IMG/VR virus record: IMGVR_UViG_3300027833_000197
Span: 1-25,866 of that record
Strand: one strand, 5' to 3'
Length of the DNA stretch: 25,866 nucleotides
Source of the DNA: a virus
The first letter of the stretch is position 1, and every line of letters starts with the position of its first letter. Shown here piece after piece: positions 2,650-24,114 of the stretch. Under the pieces are notes generated by a model, which made no database searches, was not told where the DNA came from, and worked only from the letters and a program-made list of their open reading frames with translations. A program made the translations under genes and the position numbers.

Positions 2650-3192
2650 ATGGCACGTCGAGCTAAAAAAAATTATGTAAACAACAGAGACTTACTAGAT
2701 GCTTTGGTACAATACCAGAGCGATTGTAAAGACGCAGAAGAGGCAGGGGAAGACTTGAAACCTCGTGTCCCAGATTATATTGGAACTTGCATCTTTCAAA
2801 TTGCAACACGACTATCCACCAAACCAAACTTCAGTGGCTATACATATAAAGATGACATGATCTCTGATGGGATTGAGAATTGTCTATTGTATATTGGTAA
2901 CTTCAATCCAGAGAAATCATCCAATCCATTTGCGTACTTCACACAGATCATTTGGTATGCATTCTTAAGACGTATTGCCAAAGAGAAAAAACAGATGTAT
3001 ATTCGTTTCAAGTCAAGCCAACAGATGATTTCAACAGGTGGAACATATGAAGGTGGTGATGAGGTATTAAATCTGTATACAAATGCCGACTATATGAATA
3101 CATTTGTTCAAGACTTCGAAGACAAGATCGAACGTGATAAAGCTAAGAAAAAAGAAGATGCTAAATCAGCAGACGTCAAGAAAAAGGATTAA
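2650..3192 (+). CDS. 55: gp55 late-transcription sigma factor
   Basis: A 180-residue protein, close to T4 gp55 (185). It acts as a divergent sigma-70-family subunit that lets host RNA polymerase recognise TATAAATA late promoters, activated by the gp45 clamp. The region-2-like core runs from about residue 60 to 120, with ISDGIENCL, NPFAYFTQIIWYAFLRRI and then a lysine-rich stretch. This is the usual gp55 pattern of an acidic helix followed by an aromatic DNA-melting segment. The C-terminal 25 residues are highly charged (KKKEDAK, VKKKD), with no obvious hydrophobic clamp-binding end. It starts at ATG 2650 after AAGGAGA and has a dedicated promoter. It lies upstream of 47/46, as in marine T4-like phages. 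Confidence 0.9.
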   Translation: MARRAKKNYVNNRDLLDALVQYQSDCKDAEEAGEDLKPRVPDYIGTCIFQIATRLSTKPNFSGYTYKDDMISDGIENCLLYIGNFNPEKSSNPFAYFTQIIWYAFLRRIAKEKKQMYIRFKSSQQMISTGGTYEGGDEVLNLYTNADYMNTFVQDFEDKIERDKAKKKEDAKSADVKKKD

Positions 3193-15547: not shown

Positions 15548-15555
15548 TATAAATA
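15548..15555 (+). promoter_or_regulatory. T4-type late promoter for hsp20
   Basis: A perfect TATAAATA followed by AA lies 60 bases before the hsp20 ATG. The leader that follows can form a hairpin, GTGTGA (15559-15564) with TCACAC (15576-15581), and a second one over the ribosome site. Confidence 0.75.
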
Positions 15556-15587
15556 AAGGTGTGATGCCTAATGGGTCACACTACTTA

Positions 15588-15614: not shown

Positions 15615-16070
15615 ATGAATAAACGTAGTTTAGACGGTAGACTAGATGCCGCAATGCTTAATGATCCATTCTTAATCGGGTTTGACCGAATGATTGAAAG
15701 AATGAGAGACACAGCCCCAAATCAACAGGCTTACCCACCCTACAACATCGTCAAGGTAGACGATGACCAATATGAATTGCAGTTAGCAATTGCTGGGTTC
15801 ACCTATGACGATCTTGATATTCAGATCAAAGATGGGGTGCTAACAATCGAAGGCAAACAGGAAGACACAGATGAGAAACATTACATCCATCGTGGAATTT
15901 CTGGTCGTTCCTTCTCAAGAGTTTTCACATTAGCTGATACAGTTGTTGTGAATGGCGCTGACCTTATCGATGGTATCTTAACCGTCAAATTGGAAAACGT
16001 AATACCAGAAGCAAAGAAACCTCGTAAGATTGAAATCAATCGTGGGGAACCCCAGCTTCTAAAGGGGTGA
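15615..16070 (+). CDS. hsp20: Hsp20 small heat-shock chaperone (IbpA-like)
   Basis: A 151-residue alpha-crystallin-domain protein. The domain runs from PYNIVKVDDDQYELQLAIAGF (about residue 39) through YIHRGISGRSFSRVFTLAD to DGILTVKLE and PRKIEI. The IbpA-type features YIHRGI, a LADxVxV strand and PEAKKPRKIEI are all present. It would hold aggregating proteins, perhaps virion parts, during infection. Hsp20 is a common core-type gene in marine T4-like phages. ATG 15615 follows AAGGAGAT and is preferred to an upstream in-frame start in the leader. A late promoter lies at 15548 and a strong terminator follows. Confidence 0.92.
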   Translation: MNKRSLDGRLDAAMLNDPFLIGFDRMIERMRDTAPNQQAYPPYNIVKVDDDQYELQLAIAGFTYDDLDIQIKDGVLTIEGKQEDTDEKHYIHRGISGRSFSRVFTLADTVVVNGADLIDGILTVKLENVIPEAKKPRKIEINRGEPQLLKG

Positions 16071-17880: not shown

Positions 17881-17917
17881 AAAGGGGGTTGACAGCCCCC
17901 TTTTTTGATTCTATAAC
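17881..17917 (+). terminator. Terminator with the next promoter's -35 in its loop
   Basis: AAAGGGGG (17881-17888) pairs with CCCCCTTT (17896-17903) and is followed by more T (TTTTTT at 17901-17906), a typical intrinsic terminator. Its 7-base loop is TTGACAG, so the -35 TTGACA (17889-17894) is the loop itself. With TATAAC at 17912-17917 after 17 bp it forms a promoter for the gene at 17943. Confidence 0.85.
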
Positions 17918-20626: not shown

Positions 20627-20655
20627 TTGACACTAAGTTAATTTGATTCTATAAC
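20627..20655 (+). promoter_or_regulatory. Sigma-70 promoter with TGATTC-TATAAC
   Basis: TTGACA at 20627-20632 and TATAAC at 20650-20655 have a 17-bp spacer, with TGATTC before the -10. The leader, AGAGTAACAAAAAGAAAGAGA, belongs to the same family as the neighbours. Confidence 0.78.
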
Positions 20656-20686: not shown

Positions 20687-21121
20687 ATGGCTTATATTTC
20701 ACAAGAACGTAAAAAGCAGTTAGCTCCTAATATCAAAGCTGTTCTTAAAAAGTATGGTGCTAAAGGTACTATTGCTATCAAACATCACTCTTCTTTAGTG
20801 GTTAACATTTCTTCTTCGCCTTTTGATTTTGTTGGTGTTCGAAATGCAGAGACGAAAAAAGAATGTGAAAGAACTGGTCGTACTTATTATGAGAACACTA
20901 GTAACTATATCCAAGTTAATACACATTGGATTAGTGATCACTACGAAGGTGCGGCTAGTGACTTCTTGACTGAGCTTGTAGTAGCTATGAAAGGTGACGA
21001 ATGGTTTGATCATTCAGACATGATGTCAGATTATCACCACGTTGATTTTTACCTAGACATCAACATCGGTAAGTGGAACAAGCCTTACGTTTGTATTCAA
21101 GAAGAAGCTATGGCGGCTTAG
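20687..21121 (+). CDS. Conserved phage protein of unknown function
   Basis: A 144-residue protein beginning AYISQERKKQLAPNIKAVLK, with KYGAKGTIAIKHHSSLVVNI, SPFDFVG, YIQVNTHWISDHYEGAASDFL and an ending DFYLDINIGKWNKPYVCI. I recall very similar text in small phage and plasmid proteins, also fused in larger ones, without a known activity. The His-rich strand and LDINIGKWNKPYV look conserved. It has its own promoter, and its TAA is followed by the inverted repeat with the late promoter. Confidence 0.7.
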   Translation: MAYISQERKKQLAPNIKAVLKKYGAKGTIAIKHHSSLVVNISSSPFDFVGVRNAETKKECERTGRTYYENTSNYIQVNTHWISDHYEGAASDFLTELVVAMKGDEWFDHSDMMSDYHHVDFYLDINIGKWNKPYVCIQEEAMAA

Positions 21122-21136
21122 AAATTCTCCCTCGAC

Positions 21137-21177
21137 GTGTTCTATTTGTATAAATAACACTATACCAAATAGAACAC
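21137..21177 (+). promoter_or_regulatory. Late promoter inside a 12-bp inverted repeat
   Basis: A perfect TATAAATA (21149-21156) lies in the 17-base spacer between GTGTTCTATTTG (21137-21148) and its exact complement CAAATAGAACAC (21166-21177). The ribosome site TGAGGA (21179-21184) follows the right arm after one base. Read-through RNA would form a 12-bp hairpin next to that site; RNA begun at the late promoter would lack the left arm. Confidence 0.85.
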
Positions 21178-21188
21178 ATGAGGATGGC

Positions 21189-22166
21189 ATGCTAAACTTT
21201 AAAAGCTTTATGATCGAAGAAGAAACCTTAATCACTGAACAATATCTATCTGAACAGTATGACATTTTGATGGAAAAGATGATTACCTTTGGTGGAAAGA
21301 CTTCCCCGAAATATGGTAATGTTGTTATTCTTGCGGGTGGCATGGCTTCTGGTAAAGGTTTTGTAAAGAGCAATCTTATTGGCGTTGATGGATATTCATT
21401 CGACCCTGATGCACTAAAACCGTTGGTTGCATCTGCACCGATTTTAGTGGCTAAGATTAAGCAAGAATTTGGAAGAGACGTTCCCGAATTAGCCAAAGAT
21501 ATGAACCCAAAAAATGCAACTATATTGCATAACCTCATTGGTAAAGAATTAAAGATTGGCGATCGTAGGTTAGAGGCATTATATAAATCTGTTACGACTG
21601 CCCCTCAAGATCGTAAACCAAATATCATTTTTGATTTCAGTTTACAAAAGTTTGATAAGCTTGATAAGACTATTGATGCAATCCTACCACTTGGATACGA
21701 CAAGTCTAACATCCACATTGTGTGGGTTGTTAATGACGTTGAGGTGGCATCTGCACAGAACCAAGCACGTCCCAGAACAGCCCCAGAGGACTTGCTGAGG
21801 GCTTCTCACGCGGGTGCGTCCCTATCCATGCAGAAGCTTGTCTCTATGGGCGAAGGCATTGGCAGATACCTTGATGGCGAGATCGTTATTGCTTTCAATA
21901 AAGTTAAAGTCGATAACGAATTGGCAACAGGCATTAAAGTTAAAGATAAAAAATCAAAAGGTAAAGTACAAGGCGCTAACATGCCAGTACAGACAAAACG
22001 TGGACTTAAGAAAGTTGGTGCGGGTTCTACAGGACAGTATTTGAAAGATGCTGAATACGTTTACCTAAAGCGCAAAGGCAAAAAGGTAACATCAGTGAAG
22101 AATTTAGCAACTGATATTATCAGAAAGATTAAATCGTATGTGCCTAACCCAGAGATTTGGAAATAA
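21189..22166 (+). CDS. P-loop kinase-like protein with putative capsid-targeting N-terminus
   Basis: A 325-residue protein. The N-terminus MLNFKSFMIEEETLITEQYLSE resembles T4 capsid-targeting sequences (MKTYQEFIAEA), with I-T-E and L-S-E fitting the (L/I)-x-E cleavage rule of prohead protease gp21. After it comes VVILAGGMASGKGFVKSN (Walker A at 50-57; the usual Ser/Thr after Lys is Gly), then YSFDPDALKP. That arrangement is like zeta-toxin and related kinases, with Arg-rich RPRTAPEDLLR near 200. The C-terminal 90 residues are Lys-rich. A late promoter precedes it. Suggested role: a virion-carried kinase or nucleotide-binding effector; the substrate is unknown. Confidence 0.75.
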   Translation: MLNFKSFMIEEETLITEQYLSEQYDILMEKMITFGGKTSPKYGNVVILAGGMASGKGFVKSNLIGVDGYSFDPDALKPLVASAPILVAKIKQEFGRDVPELAKDMNPKNATILHNLIGKELKIGDRRLEALYKSVTTAPQDRKPNIIFDFSLQKFDKLDKTIDAILPLGYDKSNIHIVWVVNDVEVASAQNQARPRTAPEDLLRASHAGASLSMQKLVSMGEGIGRYLDGEIVIAFNKVKVDNELATGIKVKDKKSKGKVQGANMPVQTKRGLKKVGAGSTGQYLKDAEYVYLKRKGKKVTSVKNLATDIIRKIKSYVPNPEIWK

Positions 22167-22168
22167 CA

Positions 22169-22612
22169 GTGAAAAGTTTTAAAACACATTTGTCAGAACT
22201 AAAAGTTTGGATGCCACCAAAAGGCTCTGGCTTGGGGATTGCTAGAATTAACATGCCACAAGTTAAGGCAGATGATTACCCAGATTACATAAAATACTTA
22301 GAGAAAATGGGAATTGTTTTCAAAGCAAAGACTATTGACCCAAATAAGCTTTTGCCTATTCAAAGAGAATTTAATATTCAAGGTGTCGAACGATCATTGT
22401 CCAAAATGGCATCACTTGTCCCTGGGGCGAAAGACAAATCTATTATCATATCAAAAGATAATTACATTGTGGATGGACATCACAGATGGATTGCTTATAA
22501 GAATGTTGGAAAGAATATTAATGTCATGCAAGCAAATGTTGATATGAAAAAACTTCTCGACGCCACGAACAAATACCCAAAGGTATATAATAGAAGTAAT
22601 CAAAATAAATAA
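22169..22612 (+). CDS. ParB-like domain protein with putative capsid-targeting N-terminus
   Basis: A 147-residue protein from GTG 22169, two bases after the previous stop, with GGA upstream. That start gives MKSFKTHLSEL, matching the T4 capsid-targeting pattern with a likely L-S-E cleavage point. An in-frame TTG at 22157 would bury it. The rest has IDPNKLLPIQREF near 57-69 and IIISKDNYIVDGHHRWIAYK with DGHHRW at 102-107, the hallmark of ParB/sulfiredoxin-fold nucleases and CTPases. It is co-transcribed with the kinase-like gene from the late promoter. DNA cleavage or binding in the injected cell is an inference. Confidence 0.75.
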   Translation: MKSFKTHLSELKVWMPPKGSGLGIARINMPQVKADDYPDYIKYLEKMGIVFKAKTIDPNKLLPIQREFNIQGVERSLSKMASLVPGAKDKSIIISKDNYIVDGHHRWIAYKNVGKNINVMQANVDMKKLLDATNKYPKVYNRSNQNK

Positions 22613-22613
22613 C

Positions 22614-22642
22614 TTGACAATCATTGTTGCATAGTTTAGTTA
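22614..22642 (+). promoter_or_regulatory. Possible weak sigma-70 promoter
   Basis: TTGACA at 22614-22619 is perfect, but the expected -10 position (TAGTTA, 22637-22642) is poor; a better TATGAT at 22641-22646 is too far away (21 bp). It could give low expression of the gene at 22679. Confidence 0.4.
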
Positions 22643-22678
22643 TGATGAGTAAACAGAATCACTAAGAAAGTAAATACT

Positions 22679-22873
22679 ATGAGCCATACACCAGAAGAAC
22701 TAGAAGAAATGATTGCCGAGATGATCCCTTTGATTGCTCAGCACAAAGCAAATGGTAAAATGTCTACCGCAGAAACATGCGAGAAGATCAAGCAAGTCTA
22801 TGAGAACGAATTACATTATGTGTTGACTGGCGAGGAAATCACTATGCCATACGAAGAATGGTATGATGGCTAA
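22679..22873 (+). CDS. Small acidic protein, unknown
   Basis: A 64-residue helical protein, acidic at the start (TPEELEEMIAEMIPLIAQHK) and end (EEITMPYEEWYDG). It lacks the capsid-targeting-like N-terminus of its neighbours and follows a possible separate promoter, so it may be cytoplasmic, for example a protective partner. That idea has no motif support. The ribosome site is weak (AAGAAAG). It is followed by the toxin-like gene after 18 bases. Confidence 0.55.
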   Translation: MSHTPEELEEMIAEMIPLIAQHKANGKMSTAETCEKIKQVYENELHYVLTGEEITMPYEEWYDG

Positions 22874-22891
22874 CAACCAAGGAAGACAAAA

Positions 22892-24075: not shown

Positions 24076-24080
24076 AAATA

Positions 24081-24114
24081 GGGGGTTGACACCCCCTTCT
24101 CAATTTGGTATAGT
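24081..24114 (+). terminator. GC hairpin with the -35 box as its loop
   Basis: GGGGG (24081-24085) pairs with CCCCC (24092-24096), and the 6-base loop is exactly TTGACA (24086-24091). TATAGT at 24109-24114 follows after 17 bp, making a promoter for the gene at 24145. The tail TTCTCAATTT is a weak terminator tract, so termination may be partial. Confidence 0.75.

Follow-up and report, generated by a model that had tools for sequence, protein, structure and literature searches.

A late promoter nested in a conserved hairpin before a zeta-like gene of a distant T4-like phage: a candidate late-only translational leader

In a 25,866-nucleotide stretch of viral DNA (the whole stretch analysed, hereafter the window), a T4-type late promoter lies in the loop of a perfect inverted repeat, directly before the ribosome-binding site of a zeta-toxin/kinase-like gene. 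This arrangement raises the question of whether the promoter chosen decides if the gene is translated, as for T4 lysozyme and soc, or whether the repeat is a DNA operator, the second reading offered in a preliminary description of this locus. Judged by its sequence, the phage is T4-like and distant from sequenced isolates. The window encodes UvsW, an SbcC-like gp46 and a family-B polymerase, the last at most 44% identical among its best matches in the phage collection. It also encodes a sliding clamp, a RegA-type repressor and the factor on which T4-type late leaders depend, a gp55-family late sigma factor (2650-3189; phrog_234, E 2.9e-59).

The hairpin and the two predicted transcripts

The arms of the repeat, GTGTTCTATTTG at 21137-21148 and CAAATAGAACAC at 21166-21177 (like the other elements of this locus and the uvsW leader, on the + strand), are perfect 12-bp complements with 17 nt between them, and TATAAATA lies inside the loop at 21149-21156. 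The 12-bp stem stops at 21177 and is followed by a single base, A21178, and then by TGAGGA (21179-21184), all as first described. TGAGGA is the Shine-Dalgarno sequence for the ATG at 21189. This is the sole perfect 12-bp inverted repeat with a loop of at most 30 nt in the window, where the chance expectation is a mean of 0.025 (40 dinucleotide shuffles). With four occurrences against 1.84 expected, TATAAATA alone is not rare in the window; its nesting is. As RNA, 21120-21220 folds at -23.7 kcal/mol (z -3.94), and none of 200 shuffles folds as well. The predicted stem extends inward, with UAUA at 21149-21152 pairing with UAUA at 21161-21164, and also outward, in a helix absent from the preliminary description. 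In this outer helix an anti-Shine-Dalgarno arm, CCUCG at 21130-21134 (CCTCG in the DNA), pairs with UGAGG at 21179-21183, which places the Shine-Dalgarno sequence itself within the stem. In total, the predicted stem comprises 21 bp and would occlude the Shine-Dalgarno sequence in read-through RNA. No Rfam family reached its gathering score in this region, and a DNA similarity search of the region against named phages returned no match.

Read-through RNA is expected at this site. A sigma70-type, presumably early promoter (TTGACA-17-TATAAC, 20627-20655) drives an upstream gene of unknown function (20687-21121; 144 aa, phrog_10415) that ends 8 nt before the left anti-Shine-Dalgarno arm. The promoter occupies the same place in the related contig L085 and has a variant form in another, L083. 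Because this promoter is strong and a terminator scan lists nothing terminator-like in the interval up to the hairpin, transcription from 20627 is expected to cross the hairpin. As judged from promoter and terminator predictions only, the zeta-like gene thus lies downstream of early transcription without an intervening terminator, as T4-type leaders do.

RNA started at the nested promoter is predicted to be different. By the T4 late promoter convention, TATAAATA spans positions -13 to -6 relative to the start (PMC1524935), which puts the predicted +1 at 21162. A start there would remove the 5′ arm, as T4-type late-start leaders require, and leave the right arm (21166-21177) partnerless. Consistently, the fold predicted for RNA that starts at 21162 is no more stable than expected (z +1.4). 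Pairing of the Shine-Dalgarno sequence in the read-through RNA, the other property required of such leaders, is also predicted. Opening its six nucleotides is predicted to cost 6.1-7.5 kcal/mol in the read-through RNA of the window compared with 2.0-2.5 in the late RNA, and the corresponding predictions are 5.1-6.3 and 1.4-1.9 for L083 and 6.3-6.5 and 0.8-1.0 for L085. For T4 gene e, used as a control, the predicted values are about 14 and 3-4 kcal/mol, a larger contrast than in the window leader. Weak structure near the Shine-Dalgarno sequence persists in the late RNA, with a predicted unpaired probability of about 0.2-0.45.

Conservation of the pairing and the alternatives to a switch

The preliminary description named conservation of pairing in relatives as a check on its reading, and our comparison bears this out. 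Searching via the upstream gene yielded three distinct homologous leaders, those of the window, L083 and L085 (the leader of L084 is identical to that of L083, and that of L086 to that of L085). All 21 pairs are kept in both relatives (63 of 63 cells paired over the three distinct leaders), in part through compensatory change. One pair is altered on both sides, from U-A to G-C, and three others change to wobble pairs, once each (C-G to U-G, A-U to G-U and U-A to U-G). The five CCTCG/TGAGG pairs are invariant in the three distinct leaders, and the spacing differs by a single base where the right arm meets the loop. When the partner strand is slid, pairing falls from 100% to 31-52%. A covariation shuffle control with three rows is not significant (173 of 500 shuffles reach the observed value), and the weight of the conservation rests on the 63 paired cells, the slide controls and a parallel leader upstream of uvsW. 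A DNA pattern search gave no homologous leaders beyond those already known, except in the contig L140 (6824-6857), where the same promoter core, TTTGTATAAATAACACTATAC, with other complementary arms precedes an HNH-like ORF. This case is expected, because the leader class is already known at homing endonucleases.

The uvsW leader (964-1011) is, at the level of sequence, a second, parallel case of a nested covarying hairpin, with its late promoter at 975-982 and the uvsW ATG at 1014. The same promoter core, together with compensating changes in the arms, is found in 13 relative loci. In the region compared (964-1013, with the right arm aligned by hand), position 7 of the left arm forms C-G, A-U or G-U among 14 sequences of five types. 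Position 6 forms C-G, U-G or A-U except in one type, that of the window itself, where it is mismatched. The predicted folds of this leader include pairing over or beside the Shine-Dalgarno sequence.

The substitutions in the L083 and L085 leaders point to pairing in RNA rather than to a DNA operator. In the operator reading, a dimeric repressor would bind both arms and block the late promoter. A perfect dyad does flank the promoter, and in T4, I-TevI represses its own expression at an operator that overlaps its late promoter, showing that both controls can coexist (PMC2988022). However, the wobble changes in the relatives place T opposite G, and because they break the DNA dyad while keeping G-U pairs in the RNA, they argue against a pure operator. 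An operator would also not account for the invariant CCTCG/TGAGG pairs, which extend to the Shine-Dalgarno sequence, and the one-base variation in spacing speaks against it as well. With changes that only G-U pairing tolerates and a conserved anti-Shine-Dalgarno arm, we regard the operator, the second reading of the preliminary description, as improbable.

Somewhat less probable still is that the main role of the hairpin lies in RNA stability or processing, as an RNase III site or a 5′ stabilising stem, or in marking the end of the upstream transcript, with no switch involved. Its position as a long stem just 3′ of a stop codon and between two transcription units would suit such roles, but the Shine-Dalgarno sequence lies inside the stem, and RNA started at the late promoter would not carry the stem and so could not be stabilised by it. 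The terminator form was rejected, as neither arm is followed by a U-run and the hairpin is not among the sites listed by the terminator scan on either strand. A functionless chance structure or recombination relic is the least probable reading, for although the phage DNA is AT-rich and homologous leaders are few, only 0.025 such repeats are expected per window, the pairing survives substitutions, the uvsW case is independent and the site ranks first in a survey of late promoters.

That survey covered 110 distinct late promoters with plausible ribosome-binding sites from T4-like contigs, each scored by pairing across the start site relative to shuffles of the left flank. The window site heads the ranking (-19.0 kcal/mol, z -5.7). 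Across the whole set, pairing of this nested kind exceeds chance (21 of 110 at p<=0.05, binomial 1.2e-7). Nested hairpins are not a speciality of genes with a capsid-targeting-like (CTS-like) N-terminus, as 21% of these and 18% of other late genes fall at p<=0.05. Nor is the hairpin common to all relatives of the zeta family, since only 10 of 42 size-matched phrog_5268-relative ORFs fall at p<=0.05; most of these relatives have a late promoter and no clear nested hairpin. In one phrog_5268 relative, around position 4947 of L061, TATAAATA sits between the arms of an 8-bp perfect repeat (CTGATGTG/CACATCAG) of unrelated arm sequence, which also reaches into the beginning of the Shine-Dalgarno sequence GGAG. 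In T4, the same scan places the established example, gene e, at the top by energy; the ORFs ranking after it are, as we take them to be, I-TevII in second place and then genes 26 and 51. Against left-flank shuffles gene e is not significant (z -0.5) though strong in energy, which indicates that the shuffle test is conservative and misses some real leaders.

Hairpins of other kinds also occur near promoters. At two places in the window (17881-17904 and 24080-24097), a G/C-rich stem resembling an upstream terminator carries in its loop the -35 TTGACA of a sigma70-type promoter, and the same is seen in the contig G001. Systematic nesting of this type was not established, as it was found at 2 of 9 promoters but also at 7 of 65 TTGAC sites without a -10 box. 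At the late promoter at 15548, the RNA would start with GTGTGA...TCACAC (15561-15583), forming a 5′ hairpin upstream of an HSP20-like gene at 15615, and its counterpart in L157, GCGTGA...TCACGC, carries a compensated change. Upstream of the start codons of T4 ipII and ipIII (L144) lie the perfect inverted repeats CTAGAATTGTGA/TCACAATTCTAG and AATTGTGA/TCACAATT, respectively, which apparently surround an early -10 box.

A switch set by the start site and the genes it would control

With these alternatives weighed, we consider it highly likely that the hairpin acts as a late-only translational switch at the zeta-like gene. The switch would act in cis and depend on the transcription start site. 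Early or middle RNA from upstream, for example from 20627, would carry 21130-21183 and fold into the 21-bp stem, burying the Shine-Dalgarno sequence and leaving the zeta-like gene untranslated. gp55-RNA polymerase would initiate at the nested TATAAATA, giving RNA with a 5′ end near 21162, in which the left arms are missing and the Shine-Dalgarno sequence is exposed. The toxin-like, putatively capsid-targeted protein, and the product of the CTS-type gene behind it, would then be made only while heads are built. Every step of the lysozyme/soc-type logic first proposed for this locus that can be tested in sequence fits, namely the upstream sigma70-type promoter, the lack of an intervening terminator-like site, the gp55 factor and clamp, a Shine-Dalgarno sequence predicted to be occluded only in read-through RNA, and compensated pairing in relatives. 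From the same sequence evidence we infer the timing, transcript ends, translation, toxicity and packaging in this scheme.

The zeta-like gene (21189-22166; 325 aa) begins with the capsid-targeting-like N-terminus MLNFKSFMIEE, and its product best matches phrog_5268, a family of unknown function (E 2.9e-83). The preliminary description called the genes here toxin-like, which a match to Zeta toxin (PF06414) weakly suggests; the match exists, but its 19.6 bits fall below the gathering cut-off of 22.3. A ParB-like CTS-type gene follows (22157-22612; probable start, from the sequence, GTG at 22169, giving MKSFKTHLSE) and is probably co-transcribed with it. We call these N-termini CTS-like by their resemblance to T4 internal proteins.

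In relatives, the segment at 21218-22887 is replaced by other genes. By blastn, homology with L085 (about 90% identity) breaks off at 21217, roughly ten codons inside the ORF and just past the CTS-like MLNFKSF. It restarts at 22888, where the next CTS-type gene is four bases away. The window carries the zeta-like kinase and the ParB-like gene as cargo, and L083 and L085 carry a RelA/SpoT-like protein (a match of 20.2 bits, below the cut-off of 27), a 110-aa ORF and an HD_4 hydrolase. Because DNA homology stops just after the CTS codons and the genes beyond differ, the leader and CTS appear to stay while the cargo changes, and the best reading of these sequences is that the leader serves an exchangeable cargo slot. 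We propose more tentatively that the leader and CTS codons may form a fixed late-only docking site into which toxin-like head-packaged effectors are swapped as cassettes, each never translated early and packaged for delivery at the next infection. The breakpoint just after the CTS provides a concrete model of how phages could swap effectors carried in the head without poisoning the infection that makes them.

Comparison with known late-only leaders

Leaders that act in this late-only way have been established at T4 e, soc, 49 and I-TevI, and comparable ones have been described for I-TevII, I-TevIII, segB and Aeh1 mobE (PMC3014915, PMC2988022). In a limited literature search, we found no report of this control at capsid-tagged toxin-like genes or at uvsW. 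Our analysis would extend the classic T4 switch to a distant T4-like phage, to uvsW and to toxin-like genes with a seemingly head-destined protein, and it offers a sequence signature for locating late-gated phage genes.

T4 internal protein genes, like the genes at this locus, join a conserved N-terminal CTS to diverse cargo (PMC3012670), whereas in ipII and ipIII no hairpin with TATAAATA nested in it immediately precedes the start codon. The homing endonuclease genes I-TevI, I-TevII, I-TevIII, segB and Aeh1 mobE share with the window leader a hairpin that hides the ribosome-binding site on early or middle read-through RNA, and at I-TevI a late start removes the hairpin (PMC2988022); the gene in the window is instead zeta-like, and a DNA operator such as the one at which I-TevI also autorepresses is improbable there. 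T4 gene e likewise has TATAAATA within a hairpin, hides its Shine-Dalgarno sequence in read-through RNA and yields late RNA without the 5′ strand (PMC3014915). In gene e, the Shine-Dalgarno sequence AGGAGG lies in the right arm of the hairpin and two late promoters are used, whereas the window leader sets a long upper stem on a short helix of Shine-Dalgarno and anti-Shine-Dalgarno sequences, before a zeta-like CTS gene. Taken with these likenesses and differences, the best reading of the sequence is that the window leader belongs, as a new member, to the class of late-only translational leaders known from T4 e, soc, 49 and I-TevI.
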